Shown here one piece after another: positions 24,533-30,479 of a stretch of DNA of 64,000 bases. Position numbers and translations under genes: made by a program. Origin of the DNA: Candidatus Fermentithermobacillaceae bacterium. GTDB taxonomy: Bacteria; Bacillota; Sulfobacillia; Fermentithermobacillales; Fermentithermobacillaceae. The stretch covers positions 1-64,000 of the forward strand of contig DUQH01000003.1 of NCBI GenBank assembly GCA_012837895.1, written 5' to 3'. How positions within the stretch are numbered: position 1 is the stretch's first letter; each line of letters opens with the position of its first letter. The notes under the pieces were generated by a model, which had not been told where the DNA came from, searched no databases, and saw nothing but the letters and a program-made list of their open reading frames with translations.

Positions 24533-25570
24533 TTAGTCCAGAAACTTCTCCAGCCACGAATGGAGCTTACCCGGCCCTTCAAACATAATATCCGTGCAAG
24601 CGATTCTGGTGAGCCCATCGATGTCCCCAAGGAAACTTTCAGGAGGCACATAGGTAGCAACATACTTGCCCGCACCTGACTCAGTGGGCGTATACGGGTT
24701 GATGGTGACTCCCAAAAGCTCAGTGGAAGCGCGCACCGCGACTGTTAGCCTTTCCTCAGGGTTCGCACTGAAAACCTCTTCCCAGCGGAGGAGATCACCT
24801 GAGAGCAGAAGCATAATGGGATGATCAAAAACGATAGTGAGATCCCGGTGCCCGTTCAAGTTGATTTCTTCAAGCGCTTCAAGGAACACCTGGGGATTAA
24901 CAATACCTGTTACATATACAGTTTGGGCTTTCCCGGCTCCGTTAAGACGCCACGCAAGTTCGTGCCCTTGTCCTGGGAGAAAAAGCCCGCCTGACATCTT
25001 TGACACACCGTTTCCGGAAACGTCGCCTGTGCCCGGACCGTCTACCACGGGCAGGCCCATGATCCTGTCGATAGCGTTTATTTCCCTGGCGATCCTGTGG
25101 GAATCACGGCTCCTAGCGGCGCCTGTGGCCAGGATTAGCGAATCAGCTACAACCATAGGAGATATCCTTGAAAACGCCCCGTCCAGCAACACAACTGAAT
25201 CGTCAGGCGCAAAGGCCAAGACCGAGGAAAGGTCCCGTGTACTGGCAGGCCCGGCGAGTACTACCTGGCCGGGAGCTGTGGCGGTACCGGAAAATATGCG
25301 CCCTAAGGCACACCTAACTCCTGTATCACTTAGGTCGGTAAACTTGGCATCTGACGACTCCAAGAGAGGCAGGGCGCTTGCAACAATCGCCCCCTCAGGC
25401 ACAAACACCCGGGGCTTAGGGAGCCCTGTCAGGTTGTCGAAGTCTTCACCGTCGTACCCTATGCCAGTAATGAACATTTTCTGGTTTTCCGCAAAGAACT
25501 TGATTGAGGCCACCAGCGTGGTAGTCTTCCCGGTGTTCTTTGCAGTGCCTGCAATCCCAATGACTCTCAT
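24533..25570 (-). CDS. KamB-like P-loop protein, probable mutase reactivation factor
   Basis: A 345-residue protein that opens with a P-loop, GIAGTAKNTGKTTTL, followed by GYDGEDFDNLTGLPKPRV. This pattern recalls KamB / ORF-2 proteins encoded with lysine 5,6-aminomutase and ornithine aminomutase and annotated as ATP-dependent reactivases. Such factors exchange damaged cobalamin in B12 enzymes. It lies directly downstream of a B12-dependent mutase gene, which supports this. A MutL-type partner (KamC/OR-3) is not present here. The start is uncertain: I use ATG 25570 just before the P-loop, but the frame is open to 25615. Confidence 0.6.
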   Translation of the reverse strand: MRVIGIAGTAKNTGKTTTLVASIKFFAENQKMFITGIGYDGEDFDNLTGLPKPRVFVPEGAIVASALPLLESSDAKFTDLSDTGVRCALGRIFSGTATAPGQVVLAGPASTRDLSSVLAFAPDDSVVLLDGAFSRISPMVVADSLILATGAARSRDSHRIAREINAIDRIMGLPVVDGPGTGDVSGNGVSKMSGGLFLPGQGHELAWRLNGAGKAQTVYVTGIVNPQVFLEALEEINLNGHRDLTIVFDHPIMLLLSGDLLRWEEVFSANPEERLTVAVRASTELLGVTINPYTPTESGAGKYVATYVPPESFLGDIDGLTRIACTDIMFEGPGKLHSWLEKFLD

Positions 25571-25694
25571 GCAATTCATCCACCATTTCCGGAATAGAAT
25601 AGGTTTACCGGACACTGAGACAAGCCGGTAACTTATAAGCCAGCTGCCGGCTGTACCGTGTCCGGTACTTTAGTGTTCTTATCGCTGTTGCGTT

Positions 25695-27536
25695 CTAGTG
25701 CTTCAGAGTAACGGTGCCCTTGCCTGACCTGCCAGGATAAGCCCCGTCTTCCTTGTCGCCAAGGTGTCCTTCATAGAGTGATGCCACAAAATCGCCCCTA
25801 GCTGCCACTTTCTTGAGCACTTCCAGGATGCCTTCCCTTAGCTCAGTTTCAATCCTTTCAGCTTCCGGTGTCGGGCTGATACCGCCCTCGCCGAAGAACC
25901 TTAAAGCAGCAGCGGTAGCTTTCAAAGTATCTACCCTTGCAGGTGCTGTGATTGGGCCTCCGGCATAAGCTTCGTCTGATGAAGCAATAGTCACGGCCGT
26001 CGCACCTGAATCCAGGGCCAGGGCCGCGTGAAGCGCTGTCATTACCGATGACTGGCACCTGTCTTGGGTCTGGGTAAGGAATCCAACAGGCGCACCTGGC
26101 CAGATAGGAGCGTCTATGATAGAAGACAGCACTCTCATTTTAGCTACGTTAAAGTCGATGAAGTTGTGCTCAGTGTACCCTGTGACCATACCTTCAGGCG
26201 AATTGGCAAACAGCGGCTGCAACAAGGGGCGTCCTCCCTGCAGCACTCCTGCTGTAGCAACTATCAACATGCCTGCAAAAGCCTTTGCCGCAGGAACACC
26301 GCATAGTTCCTCGTTGGTCACTACGTCATAGGGCAGATTGTGCTGGGCAGCAAGCCTCATGGCCTCGACCCCGTCTACAGTCAGACGCTCAGGGTCGGTG
26401 CCCGCGCCCAAGCTACCGTACACAATGTTGATCTTGGTCAGATCTGCGCCTGAAAGGTGAGCTAACACAACTGTTTCAGGTGTATTGAGGCCCCTGTGGG
26501 CTCTTACTTGCCACAGAATGCCTGGAATCAGCCCGCCTTTTATCAAGCGGAGGTTGTCGAGCGTGAGCACTGTCCCGTCATGTTCATGGCTCCATGCCTG
26601 TTCCAATAAGCCTTCGTTCCTGGCTCCCCACGACGGGTCAAAATGGACTACACCCCTGGCTCCCCAAGCGACGCTCAGGTTGATGTGGTAAGCGTCCATC
26701 ACAGGACAGCCGGTGCCATACTGGACAAACACGTTACGGTCATTGAGTATATCCTGAGACCTTGGGATCACGATGCTGTCGGCATTTTTCAAGAGTGAAC
26801 GGATATAGCCGGCTTCTTTTTCGGTGATAGGCCTCGTATGAGACACATGTTTCCCTGTCAAATACCATTCTTTTACCTCACCTGACGTCAGGGAAGCATA
26901 GTCGTTGCGCAGTGTTGAATATAGCCCCGGGTTGGAATCTCTTTCAGACTCCATCTCAATTCTCAAGCGGGCCCTTTCTACACCGGAACTTGTGTGCTTA
27001 TTTGCCCAGTCTATGAGCTGCTGGGCAATGGTCGTGCACAGGTAACCAATCTCACTGTCAAGGAACTTATAAGTAAACCCTGCTGTAAGATCGGCTTTCT
27101 CCCGGCGCCTGCTTCCGGTTGACAGGTCCAGTTCCTGCCCTTCAACATAAGCAACCGCAGCTTCAACAGGAGTGTCTGGCCCAAAACCTGCATCAAATCC
27201 AAGTTCCTGCGCGATCACTGGCTTCATGCTCAGACCGCCTGCAACAAGTTTGGCCTTTTCCCTCAAGCCAGCAGCATCACACAGGTCCACAAACTTGGCC
27301 AGGAGCTCAGAGATACCATAGCTCAACGCACGGCTTATCATGATAAAGTCGGGATCCATGGCTTTCGCCCGTGCCACAATCTCTTCCATTGAAAGGTCAG
27401 GCGGAAGTAATGTTACCTCATGCCCTCTTTCAAGAAGCTTCCTTCGGATGAGTTTGAGGCCTACGTCATGAACCGGATCGAGTGGGGCAAGAACCACTTT
27501 GCGAGGCGTTATCCCTTTGCTACGTCCTTGTTCCAT
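25695..27536 (-). CDS. Fused B12-binding / GlmE-like mutase of unknown substrate
   Basis: A 613-residue protein. Residues 12-135 form a cobalamin-binding Rossmann-like domain (VVLAPLDPVHDVGLKLI, later LVAGGLS). After a linker, residues 255-560 resemble the TIM barrel of glutamate mutase epsilon (GTGCPVMDAYHINLS, KINIVYGSLGAG, ALALDSGATAVTIAS). Glutamate mutase has these as separate subunits; here they are joined, with the B12 domain first. The lower-ligand motif reads D-P-V-H-D-V-G, so the usual D-x-H-x-x-G aspartate is one residue early. The reaction should be an adenosylcobalamin-dependent rearrangement. ridA, an FCD regulator and a KamB-like gene suggest an amino acid or related acid as substrate. 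The ATG lies three bases after the preceding stop, with GGAGGTG overlapping that gene. Confidence 0.7.
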   Translation of the reverse strand: MEQGRSKGITPRKVVLAPLDPVHDVGLKLIRRKLLERGHEVTLLPPDLSMEEIVARAKAMDPDFIMISRALSYGISELLAKFVDLCDAAGLREKAKLVAGGLSMKPVIAQELGFDAGFGPDTPVEAAVAYVEGQELDLSTGSRRREKADLTAGFTYKFLDSEIGYLCTTIAQQLIDWANKHTSSGVERARLRIEMESERDSNPGLYSTLRNDYASLTSGEVKEWYLTGKHVSHTRPITEKEAGYIRSLLKNADSIVIPRSQDILNDRNVFVQYGTGCPVMDAYHINLSVAWGARGVVHFDPSWGARNEGLLEQAWSHEHDGTVLTLDNLRLIKGGLIPGILWQVRAHRGLNTPETVVLAHLSGADLTKINIVYGSLGAGTDPERLTVDGVEAMRLAAQHNLPYDVVTNEELCGVPAAKAFAGMLIVATAGVLQGGRPLLQPLFANSPEGMVTGYTEHNFIDFNVAKMRVLSSIIDAPIWPGAPVGFLTQTQDRCQSSVMTALHAALALDSGATAVTIASSDEAYAGGPITAPARVDTLKATAAALRFFGEGGISPTPEAERIETELREGILEVLKKVAARGDFVASLYEGHLGDKEDGAYPGRSGKGTVTLKH

Positions 27537-27539
27537 ATG

Positions 27540-27767
27540 TTACACCTCCTGGTCATACCACTGGTAGTCTGCCGAGGGCCGGTACACATAACCCCTCAAC
27601 CTTATCCTTACACCCGGACCTCCCATTTCGCAGAACACCACGTCGGCATCTTCAAATCCCAGTTCGGCCATGAGCCTCAAACCGAGTGTCTTACCTTCAT
27701 CAACATCTTTGCATAGTATAAATGTTTCAACGTCACATCCATCGAGGATGCGGTGCTTAATCGACAT
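27540..27767 (-). CDS. Conserved-context 75-residue hypothetical protein
   Basis: I do not recognise this acidic, soluble protein. It contains two cysteines early on (GCDVETFILC) and a glycine turn (CEMGGPGVRIRLRGYVY). The start ATG at 27767 has GGAGG 7 bases upstream and overlaps the end of the regulator gene by 11 bases. Its stop lies three bases before the mutase start, so all three are translationally coupled. It could be a small mutase subunit, as D-ornithine aminomutase has, but shows no visible likeness to OraS or GlmS. Confidence 0.6.
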   Translation of the reverse strand: MSIKHRILDGCDVETFILCKDVDEGKTLGLRLMAELGFEDADVVFCEMGGPGVRIRLRGYVYRPSADYQWYDQEV

Positions 27768-28521
27768 CTTCCCGCCTCCCATTCGCGATCTCGGCCCAGT
27801 ACCTGTCTACGTCCTTGATAACGCCGTCTATGTGCTCAGTCATAGCCATCCTGGCACCTTCCTTGTCCCGTTTCGCTACTTGGACAAGAATCCGCCTGTG
27901 GTCCCTGACCATTTGAGACCCTACTCTCGCCCGGATGTACTCCAGAACCCTGCCTATCTGGGGATTGTTGTAGATTAGGTCCAGGGCGCCTGCAAGTACT
28001 CTATTCTTGCACGCTTCCGCCAAGCACCGGTGAAACTCCGCGTCTTTTTCAACTCCTGAATGCCCTGTCTTGAGAAGCTCCTGGTGCTCCTCTATTATCT
28101 TCTCCAATTTGCCAAGTTCCTCTTCAGTCACGTTCTGGGCTGCCAAGTAAGCGGTTTCGCTTTCAATTGCCCGGCGCGCAATCAGAGCATCTACGAGATG
28201 CTTCCGGCCGCGTATTGTAAGGCTCTCTGCCAGGGCATTGTGGGATTCCCTGTTTACCTGTTCATGCAGCCACTCCTGGAGAGCTTCCTGCCCTTGGAGA
28301 GTTATGACCCTGCCCACGCGGCCTTCGATACGTGCGTGCCCGTTATCCTCCAGCGTTTTCAATATCCTGCCTGCGGTGGCCCTGGACACTTCCAAGCCCT
28401 TTTTCTTAAGCAGACTACAGAGACGCCAAGCGCCAATAGGCCGGGAAGACTCTCCTATAACCTCTAACGCTCGGAAATAGGCTTCATTGGAACTTACCCT
28501 CAGGAACCTCACCTCCCCCAA
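27757..28521 (-). CDS. FCD-domain regulator with an atypical winged helix
   Basis: A 254-residue transcription factor. Residues 15-85 form a winged helix with GESSRPIGAWRLCSLLKKKG and SRATAGRILKTLEDNGHARI. This looks more like the NrpR/RNase-R type (HTH_12) than the usual GntR domain. Residues 105-240 are an FCD ligand domain (IARRAIESETAYLAA, DAEFHRCLAEACKN, HRRILVQVAKRD) whose Asp and His residues usually bind a metal and a carboxylate ligand. It lies between ridA and the mutase and probably controls the operon by sensing its substrate or product. A palindrome at the operon promoter is the likely site. Confidence 0.75.
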   Translation of the reverse strand: MGEVRFLRVSSNEAYFRALEVIGESSRPIGAWRLCSLLKKKGLEVSRATAGRILKTLEDNGHARIEGRVGRVITLQGQEALQEWLHEQVNRESHNALAESLTIRGRKHLVDALIARRAIESETAYLAAQNVTEEELGKLEKIIEEHQELLKTGHSGVEKDAEFHRCLAEACKNRVLAGALDLIYNNPQIGRVLEYIRARVGSQMVRDHRRILVQVAKRDKEGARMAMTEHIDGVIKDVDRYWAEIANGRREDVD

Positions 28522-28563
28522 GAAATCAGCGAGAGAATGCCTGGACCGGGAGACTGTTCTGGA

Positions 28564-29025
28564 TTACTCTTTGACAAACGCGATGACTTCCACTTCTACC
28601 GGAACGTCAAGAGGAAGAGCTGTAACGCCTACGGCTGCCCTCGCGTGTCTGCCCTTGTCACCGAAAACCTCAAGGAATAGATCGGAAGCGCCGTTAACTA
28701 CTTTAGGAGCATCTGTGAAATCAGGGGAACAAGCTACGAAACCTGTTACTTTGACTATGCGTTCTACATTGTCCAAGGACCCGGCAACGCTCTTGATGAT
28801 AGCCAGGGCATTGAGAGCGCACTGCTTCGCTTCTTCCTGTGCGTCTTCCAAGCTAACCTCGCTGCCTACTTTACCTGAAACCCTGACTTTTCCGTCCCTG
28901 AGGGGGATCTGTCCCGAAACATACACCCAGTTACCTTGCTTTACAGCAGGCACATATGAAGCCACCGGTGCAGGAGCTTCAGGGAGAGTCAATCCCAATT
29001 GGGCCAGTCTTTCTTCTACTGTCAT
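28564..29025 (-). CDS. ridA: RidA-family enamine/imine deaminase
   Basis: A 153-residue member of the RidA/YjgF/TdcF family, which hydrolyses reactive enamine and imine intermediates of PLP-dependent amino-acid breakdown. The variant with GNWVYVSGQIPLRDGKV near residue 32, QCALNALAIIKSVAGSLDNV near 86 and RAAVGVTALPLDVPVEVE near the end belongs to the longer clade. GGAGGT lies before the ATG. It is the first gene of the mutase operon, which points to a pathway that handles an amino acid or forms an unstable imine. Confidence 0.88.
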   Translation of the reverse strand: MTVEERLAQLGLTLPEAPAPVASYVPAVKQGNWVYVSGQIPLRDGKVRVSGKVGSEVSLEDAQEEAKQCALNALAIIKSVAGSLDNVERIVKVTGFVACSPDFTDAPKVVNGASDLFLEVFGDKGRHARAAVGVTALPLDVPVEVEVIAFVKE

Positions 29026-29057
29026 TGTATGTACCTCCTAGTGAGAGTTTTTGATGC

Positions 29058-29090
29058 AGTATAGTCTAAACCTCATCAGCAATGAGTTAG
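29058..29090 (-). promoter_or_regulatory. Promoter and candidate operator of the ridA-mutase operon
   Basis: The minus-strand -10 is TATACT at 29058-29063, about 30 bases before the ridA start. The -35 position falls in a dyad, CTAAACCTCAT (29066-29076) facing ATGAGTTAG (29082-29090), with CTCAT/ATGAG matching perfectly around CAGCA. A palindrome over the -35 is a typical repressor site, probably for the FCD regulator encoded by the second gene. Confidence 0.5.
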
Positions 29091-29192: not shown

Positions 29193-30479
29193 CGTTGGCA
29201 ATCACCAGAAGTATGCTCCCTTCGTGAACCAGCATTCCGCTGCTGAGGAAAATAACCCTGCCAATAACCCTGCCAGGAGCAAAGCCACAACTGCCACTGC
29301 GAATACCACATTTTGCTTTACGATCTTCAGGATGTCGCGGCTGAGTCTGATCGAGTAAGGCACCCTTTCCAGCCGGTCAGCCATAAGGGCAATATCAGCG
29401 GTCTCTATTGCAGCCTGGGTCCCCGATGTGCCCATGGCGATGCTCACATCAGCTACGGCCAGTGCCGGGGCATCGTTAATCCCGTCACCCACCATGGCCA
29501 CAACATGGCCTTGAGATTGCAGTTGTTTGATAGCTTCCACCTTTTGTTCCGGCAACAGTCCTGCCTTGACCACATCTATTCCCAGTTGTGAAGCTACCCT
29601 CTGGGCTGACCCAGGGTTATCTCCTGTTAACATCACAGTTTGTTTGACGCCTGCCTGCTTGAGGCTTTGGACCAGTCCATAGGCTTCAGGCCGTATGGGA
29701 TCTTCTATTGCTATCACTCCGGCAGGATTTCCACCGACTGCCACCAACGCGATTGTCTGGCCTTGTTCTTCAAGCATCCTGACGACGGCCCCGGCACGCG
29801 GCCGCAATTGTATCCCACGGGATTGGAGCAGTCTCCTATTGCCCACTAGTATCTCCCCGTCACCTGACTGTGCTGCTGTTCCTAACCCGGCTTCCAAAAC
29901 CCAGTCCCACGCGTGTACGGGACTTACATTCTGTTCCTGGGCGTAAGTCAAGATGGCATTTGCAAGATGAGGCTCAGACCGCTGCTCGGCAGCAGCTGCA
30001 TATGATATGACTTTGCTTACTGCTTCAGCGCTGCCTGATCCAAGGCCGTGGTTGTTTGCTCCATCTCTGCGATAGCCGGCCTCTTCGCTGTCACGGTTTG
30101 CTCCACCCCTGTTATCGTTTACATCCCCAAAGGACATGACCGACGAAACCCTGGGCTGCCCTAGGGTAAGAGTTCCTGTCTTGTCGAAAGCTATAACGTC
30201 TACGCTGCCGATCCGCTCCAGGCGTTCGCCTCCTTTGATGATGGTAACCAGTAAAGGGATGGAGAATTGGCCTGCAGTGATCCTTGCCCAAGCTTCCTTT
30301 ACCACCTCTATACCTGCGACCAGGGCGCCTCCTATCATCAGCCAATAGTAAACCTTGTTCCCTGGCTGCACCCAAGCCGAAACCCATGCTGAGAAGATTA
30401 GGCTCCCTGAAACCGCCACAGTTACAAGTGTTTTGTTGTTTGAAATCCAATTCCACACTGCTCCAGGCTTTGAGTTCAT
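29167..30479 (-). pseudogene. Decayed heavy-metal P-type ATPase
   Basis: The phosphorylation site DKTGTLT, MLTGDNPGSAQRVA and MVGDGINDAPALAVAD are intact and indicate a Zn/Cd/Cu-type P1B ATPase. Helix 2 (QFSIPLLVTI) runs directly into IKGGERLERIGSVDVIAFDKTG, so the actuator domain, the TGES motif and the CPC/SPC metal-binding helix are missing; about 200 residues have been deleted in frame. Near the end the frame shifts. The current frame stops at 29202, but another frame continues with GMLVHEGSILLVIANGMRLL and stops at 29167. A 12-bp tandem duplication (AATAACCCTGCC twice, 29251-29274) lies at the shift. It cannot transport ions. Confidence 0.82.

Follow-up and report, generated by a model that had tools for sequence, protein, structure and literature searches.

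Which reaction is served by a compact operon whose central protein resembles adenosylcobalamin (AdoCbl)-dependent mutases and matches no characterised pathway? The question is raised by five genes in a 64,000-nucleotide (nt) stretch (the window) of contig DUQH01000003.1 from Candidatus Fermentithermobacillaceae bacterium (GCA_012837895.1), a 2.05-Mb draft genome from a family of Bacillota known from metagenomes. Coordinates are positions within this window; all five genes lie on the minus strand in the 5'→3' order ridA, fcd, small gene, mutase and kamB-like. A sequence-only reading had described five packed genes (ridA, an FCD regulator, a 75-residue protein, a fusion and a KamB-like protein), and had proposed an orphan mutase of the AdoCbl type, served by a dedicated regulator and a KamB-type P-loop protein, that fits no known pathway. 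The gene set is confirmed here, with its order recurring in relatives, and this part of the reading is supported. Domain identities, loss of the pyridoxal 5'-phosphate (PLP) site residues, gene linkage and co-occurrence were computed. With a probability of about 0.68, we consider that the small protein and the 613-amino-acid (aa) protein constitute an AdoCbl-dependent radical isomerase of the aminomutase lineage, in which the domains are recut and PLP is dispensed with, acting on a small acidic substrate in an uncharacterised pathway.

The AlphaFold2 (AF2) model of the 613-aa protein (predicted local distance difference test, pLDDT, 90.7; predicted template modelling score, pTM, 0.86) found its best PDB matches in lysine 5,6-aminomutase alpha (KamD; Foldseek, E 3.5e-16). 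The KamD fold was shared over 394 residues at 3.8 Å (VIA Z 31.8; model residues 159-613 on chain residues 10-503), and the Z scores for GlmE, OraE and methylmalonyl-CoA mutase were 26.5, 26.2 and approximately 19, respectively. The B12 domain matched PF02310 (48.2 bits; gathering cut-off 32.1) and 1y80 (VIA Z 18.3); its nearest profile was KamE (34% identity, E 1.8e-22 by hhalign), and corrinoid proteins of methyltransferases, MtgC and 1y80 among them, matched it as well. The remainder of the protein matched the KamD profile globally (E 3.6e-8), whereas the GlmE profile and reversed controls yielded no significant profile alignment with the barrel. By predicted fold and by profile the barrel is thus nearer KamD than GlmE, which corrects the earlier label of a GlmE-like fusion, though the PLP site of KamD is lost. 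In an alignment of 75 full-length sequences (homologues 49-89% identical to the 613-aa protein), many residues were invariant; weak matches to PF16552 OAM_alpha (OraS) appeared in the clamp of 12 of the 75 (best E 0.0038), to the KamD barrel in 5 and to MutE in 4 (best E 0.001). The family models for the known enzymes scored far below their cut-offs, with 43.5 versus 280 bits for the KamE equivalog NF052385 (B12 domain only), 28.1 versus 800 for NF040743 (OraE) and 12.5 versus 390 for TIGR01503 (glutamate mutase E chain). The axial-ligand motif reads D-P-V-H-D-V/I-G-x-K, and its D, P, V, H, D, G and K were identical in 70/70 motif-matched homologues, with the Asp at His-3, not at His-2 as in KamE/OraE, and Lys28 at His+5.

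The partner of this protein was recognised through its structure. The AF2 model of the 75-aa protein (pLDDT 89.6) retrieved KamE/OraE entries in all of its top six PDB matches (Z 6.7-7.2; the next, unrelated entry at 5.5), and it superposed on 1xrs_B at 1.3 Å over 51 residues, corresponding to the fold of KamE 33-84 and OraE 510-585. A Z near 7 is modest, yet every top match is one and the same domain. The 75-aa protein itself matched no family in the Pfam search, PF16554 included, and its profile retrieved nothing significant in the PDB sequence-profile search; the relation emerged from the model and from Pfam on homologues, among which PF16554 OAM_dimer was the top family in 22/44 at a permissive E (best 1.2e-4). 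Direct hhalign comparison with KamE alone was weak (E 9e-5, 29 columns). Gene neighbourhoods were read in 79 mutase loci from Bacillota, Thermotogota and Atribacterota, which were retrieved via the mutase, so that all counts are conditional on its presence and include related genomes. The small gene stood directly upstream of the mutase in all 79, with -80 to +3 nt between profile edges. An apparent fusion of both genes in locus L078 (710-aa open reading frame, ORF) was ruled out, since the small gene occupies a separate frame. On the model, the Pfam matches of homologues and the adjacency, the 75-aa protein is a predicted free-standing KamE/OraE dimerisation domain (PF16554) and almost certainly a subunit of the mutase. 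The known partners, which the sequence-only reading had considered absent, are therefore present in altered form: as judged from models and profiles, all domains of KamDE/OraSE are retained, with the dimerisation domain standing alone and a KamE-type B12 domain fused to a KamD/OraS-type clamp and barrel. Separate structure models, that of the fusion being among the checks which that reading had named, gave a KamD-like fusion and a KamE/OraE dimerisation fold.

What distinguishes this family from the aminomutases is the cofactor site. In lysine 5,6-aminomutase, PLP forms an imine with Lys144b, its pyridine N contacts Ser238, Tyr263 stacks on it and Asn299 contacts O3'; the phosphate is bound by Arg184, Arg268, Ser189 and the 187-189 amides, with Tyr236 also listed (PMC3958899). 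These side chains of KamD were invariant in 18/18 KamD sequences. The residue at His+11, which is Lys in 12/12 KamE (Lys144b) and 17/17 OraE (Lys629), was Leu in 68, Met in 1 and Val in 1 of 70 mutase homologues and never Lys. By profile mapping, Arg184 is replaced by Asp300, Tyr236 by Ala346, Asn299 by Glu409 and Arg268 by Ala378 (Ala/Gly across the family), and the phosphate loop with Ser189 is deleted. Ser238 is replaced by an invariant Arg348 within RAHR (345-348), which is unchanged in 75/75 sequences, and only Tyr263 is kept among the seven KamD contacts, as Tyr373. As read from these alignments, the aminomutase PLP site is lost, and the mutase is therefore most likely PLP-independent, with arginines at the former PLP place probably holding a carboxylate-bearing substrate. 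Lys28 was considered as a substitute PLP lysine and judged unlikely because it sits at His+5, where GlmS and methylmalonyl-CoA mutase have a lysine too.

The gene cluster is genuine and conserved in a wide range of anaerobes. Within reach of the mutase in the 79 loci, profile scans detected the KamB-like gene in 65, a PLP enzyme in 62, FCD in 57, DUF6917 in 49, a GidA-like flavoprotein in 46 and RidA in 41. The fcd-small-mutase-kamB order is repeated in essentially every relative, and with these counts the linkage is far beyond chance. Neither outcome that the sequence-only reading had named as speaking against it was obtained: the KamE, OraE and GlmE models fell short and the PLP residues are gone, so no characterised GlmE, OraE or KamD with a conserved active site was the best match, and the genes are linked elsewhere (small gene and mutase 79/79, KamB-like 65/79). 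The KamB-like protein carries the P-loop G-x-x-x-x-G-K-T, within a segment, GTAKNTGKTT, that varies little or not at all among 24 homologues, all of which match NF052386; a PDB profile search with its family returned no match. By analogy with KamB, it is a probable reactivating ATPase for the mutase.

The operon is a third, separate B12 mutase system in its host. A complete lysine-fermentation operon is encoded elsewhere in the genome (KamA, KamB at 268 bits, a KamC-like MutS, KamD, KamE and a dehydrogenase), together with OraE and a complete ora system; no copy of GlmE was found in the host genome. Because the kam and ora systems are complete, the five genes are not a decayed copy of the sole aminomutase system. 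A tblastn search of a plasmid collection with the mutase as query gave no match.

The earlier view of the five genes as a complete unit did not hold, since the operon continues with the PLP enzyme, DUF6917 and the flavoprotein in most other genomes. In the host, all three fall outside the window: DUF6917 and the PLP enzyme share the contig of the mutase at a distance of approximately 80 kb, and a different contig encodes the flavoprotein. Across the class (154 genomes), 33 genomes carry the mutase and 34 the PLP enzyme; 32 have the two together, the exception being one 80%-complete genome; the PLP enzyme occurred in 12/12 mutase-bearing families and DUF6917 in 31/33 mutase-bearing genomes. Co-occurrence without adjacency argues that mutase, PLP enzyme and DUF6917 serve one pathway, and the near one-to-one association with an uncharacterised PLP enzyme indicates that this pathway is undescribed. 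The PLP enzyme resembles DgaE/SelA/SepCysS-like and generic fold-type-I enzymes only around its cofactor lysine, and its reaction therefore cannot be named. Literature searches on DUF6917, diaminopimelate (DAP) with aminomutase, uncharacterised B12 mutases and KamB returned nothing relevant.

We infer from these results the use of AdoCbl, PLP independence, the class of substrate, the role of the reactivase and the order of the steps. The small subunit and the 613-aa protein would form one AdoCbl-dependent enzyme of the lysine 5,6-/ornithine 4,5-aminomutase lineage, which would rearrange its substrate without PLP in the fashion of glutamate mutase, with R306, R345, H347 and R348 holding the carboxylated substrate at the former PLP place. 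Replacement of damaged cobalamin would fall to the KamB-like ATPase, and the FCD-regulated mutase would feed a pathway with a dedicated PLP enzyme, DUF6917, RidA and the flavoprotein. After rearrangement, the PLP enzyme or flavoprotein may release an enamine or imine, which RidA would hydrolyse. The probable role of the operon is a so far undescribed step in the fermentation of amino acids; isomerisation of an amino acid, which the sequence-only reading had put forward, is plausible.

Several observations weigh against this PLP-free radical isomerase. The KamB-like protein reaches 156 bits against NF052386, under the KamB cut-off of 210; in 14/79 loci none of the genes within reach is KamB-like, and a KamC was not recognised near the mutase loci. 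The axial-ligand motif is D-x-x-H-x-x-G instead of D-x-H-x-x-G. Profile alignment at approximately 19% identity, and not superposition of coordinates, underlies the mapping of the PLP residues, and GlmE-like chemistry is argued by analogy because the glutamate ligands of GlmE, its substrate-binding arginines and Glu171, are not significantly alignable. The whole architecture and the aminomutase-type reactivase would also suit an enzyme that still depends on PLP and B12, acts on another diamino acid and binds PLP noncovalently or through a different lysine; the stacking tyrosine is kept as Tyr373, and invariant Lys28, Lys368 and Lys466 are available. We regard this as unlikely, given that the PLP lysine, the residues of the phosphate loop, the serine at the pyridine N and the asparagine at O3' have each been lost or substituted, and that Lys28 is at the His+5 position discussed above. 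A little less probable is a carbon-skeleton mutase acting on glutamate or a close homologue as a functional stand-in for GlmES. GlmE ranks second by fold, the few MutE matches noted above and the missing host GlmE fit such an enzyme, and, by eye, the QVRAHRGLNTPE strand is similar to the stretch of GlmE in which a substrate-binding arginine presumably sits, but the GlmE profile match is not significant, TIGR01503 stays at 12.5 bits and none of the neighbourhoods read showed a recognisable methylaspartase. A corrinoid methyltransferase or B12 sensor, to which the likeness of the B12 domain to MtgC and 1y80 could point, is very improbable beside a radical-mutase barrel, an aminomutase dimerisation subunit and a KamB-type companion.

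Within the PLP-free isomerase, the substrate may be narrowed further. In Pseudothermotoga, two proteins of the operon are true DAP enzymes, a DAP dehydrogenase (290 bits, cut-off 181) and DapF (239, cut-off 115), and no other DapF was found in any of three Pseudothermotoga genomes. Locus L043 also has a DapF nearby, L093 has a DapA-like protein below cut-off, and NagZ, AnmK and a DppA-like D-aminopeptidase are encoded in synteny with the PLP enzyme/DUF6917 pair at 6/9 host-family loci. The Pseudothermotoga genes and this synteny suggest DAP or another D/L-dicarboxylic amino acid derived from peptidoglycan, as a lead and not a result. We would give it little weight as a specific proposal, since DapF occurs in only 4/79 loci, the dap genes may be biosynthetic, Atribacteria loci carry a TRAP transporter, an Asp/Glu-racemase-like gene and sarcosine-oxidase-like subunits instead, and PLP-free chemistry for DAP is not obvious.

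To our knowledge, about a dozen AdoCbl isomerase reactions are known, and the two PLP-using aminomutases have so far counted as a closed pair. If a conserved relative keeps every aminomutase domain without the PLP site, it would link the aminomutases to the PLP-free glutamate-mutase type and illustrate a way in which dependence on a cofactor disappears. The nearly one-to-one occurrence of the mutase with the PLP enzyme and DUF6917 provides a concrete gene set for finding a new fermentation pathway and a likely biological setting for DUF6917. At somewhat below even odds, this is a new kind of AdoCbl radical isomerase that has abandoned PLP, catalyses a rearrangement outside the known list and stands at the centre of an undescribed fermentation pathway, perhaps of DAP or another cell-wall amino acid, in Bacillota, Thermotogota and Atribacterota.

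All five ORFs were confirmed (Table 1). The small gene starts at ATG 27767 behind GGGAGG, with a longer start at 27782 possible, and an alternative GTG start at 25615 is possible for the kamB-like gene. The ridA-fcd gap is 42 nt and the mutase-kamB-like gap 79-124 nt; the 11-nt fcd-small overlap, the 3-nt small-mutase gap and the AGGAGG inside the small gene look like translational coupling. Promoter and terminator scans scored no better than shuffles.

Table 1. Coordinates of genes and features of the operon within the 64,000-nt window.
Feature	Position	Strand	Evidence
RidA-family enamine/imine deaminase, 153 aa	28564..29025	-	PF01042 86 bits, PF14588 79 bits
FCD-domain transcriptional regulator, unusual winged-helix N-terminus (HTH_12)	27757..28521	-	PF07729 84 bits, PF08461 29 bits
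Predicted small subunit, 75 aa, stand-alone KamE/OraE-type dimerisation domain	27540..27767	-	Model, PDB matches, PF16554 in homologues, linkage
AGGAGG ribosome-binding site of mutase, within 3' end of small-subunit gene	27545..27550	-	Sequence
Fused mutase, 613 aa: B12 Rossmann + helical clamp + TIM barrel (predicted)	25695..27536	-	AF2 model, family and profile searches
Mutase residues 8-140, cobalamin-binding Rossmann domain, KamE/OraE-like	27117..27515	-	PF02310; hhalign to KamE; 1y80
Mutase residues 20-28 DPVHDVGLK, axial-ligand motif, His23	27453..27479	-	Invariant positions in 70/70 motif-matched homologues
Mutase residue 34 (His+11), Leu, position of PLP lysine in KamE/OraE	27435..27437	-	Homologue counts
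Mutase residues 150-265, predicted helical clamp, similar to OraS / KamD N-terminus	26742..27089	-	PF16552 weak matches; VIA range reaching KamD residue 10
Mutase residues 266-613, predicted TIM-barrel catalytic domain	25698..26741	-	VIA Z to KamD; global profile match to KamD
Mutase residues 345-348 RAHR, strand facing former PLP pocket; Arg348 replaces Ser238	26493..26504	-	hhalign mapping; invariant 75/75
KamB-like P-loop protein, probable reactivating ATPase	24533..25570	-	NF052386 156 bits, cut-off 210

The chromosomal position of the operon, with dacF and/or spmAB-like genes nearby and an rsuA/rluB-like pseudouridine synthase gene following closely, is conserved in the window and in loci L049, L051, L052, L055, L059 and L064 from several Bacillota families, which suggests mostly vertical inheritance. 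A P-type metal ATPase ORF at 29202-30479 (minus strand) has only 425 aa; its first helices run straight into a KGGERLERI..DKTGTLT segment, and the actuator domain seems missing through internal deletion or gene decay. A 678-aa ORF resembling a full-length P-type ATPase lies elsewhere in the host genome (L119:12680-14713).

Neighbourhoods vary among relatives. The mutase operons of L103, L069 (Pseudothermotoga), L108 and L111 (Atribacteria) have TRAP transporters, an Asp/Glu-racemase-like gene and a multi-subunit sarcosine-oxidase/D-amino-acid-dehydrogenase-like complex instead of some usual partners. The L072 locus (Paenibacillus sp. RC67) is an unusual variant: it has no KamB-like gene, and ornithine-cyclodeaminase/SbnB-like and methionine-gamma-lyase-like proteins are encoded beside DUF6917, the small subunit and the mutase. 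A cysteine-rich protein of approximately 270-320 aa with C-P-C-V-L and C-D-C-D-W-x-G-x-C motifs (L119:7101-8078; cluster c14, e.g. L078, L088) often adjoins the flavoprotein or mutase and is possibly an electron partner. A 602-aa ORF without family match (L118:5782-7587) is oriented divergently to the DUF6917 and PLP-enzyme genes in 9/9 loci of the host family and order. Relatives also carry a separate family of approximately 560 aa (L166, L167, L169, L172, L174, L175, L176, L179, L180) with an N-terminal B12 domain, a GDCVHVAG motif (also D-x-x-H) and a GlmE-like barrel (hhalign E 1e-5); this barrel matches GlmE, not that of the 613-aa mutase, and the family is possibly 2-methyleneglutarate-mutase-like.

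Among known systems, KamDE with KamBC shares with this operon the KamD-like clamp and barrel, the KamE-like B12 and dimerisation domains and the KamB-like ATPase, and a genuine kam operon is present elsewhere in the same genome. The differences from KamDE are the stand-alone dimerisation domain, the B12 domain fused before the barrel, the lost PLP site, the D-x-x-H motif, the absence of a recognised KamC nearby and scores far below the family cut-offs. The clamp, barrel, dimerisation and B12 domains of OraSE likewise all have counterparts here, but the OraE chain runs barrel-dimer-B12 with OraS separate, whereas here the dimerisation domain is separate and B12, clamp and barrel are fused, and the PLP lysine Lys629 is absent. 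GlmES (MutSE) shares the barrel and B12-domain folds, presumably also the lysine at His+5 of the B12 motif, and is itself a PLP-free AdoCbl enzyme; it differs in its two-subunit make-up, and the present system has additional clamp and dimerisation domains, no significant profile match and no recognised methylaspartase. By description, the fused mutase can also be likened to 2-methyleneglutarate mutase, a single chain of similar length with a fused B12 domain.

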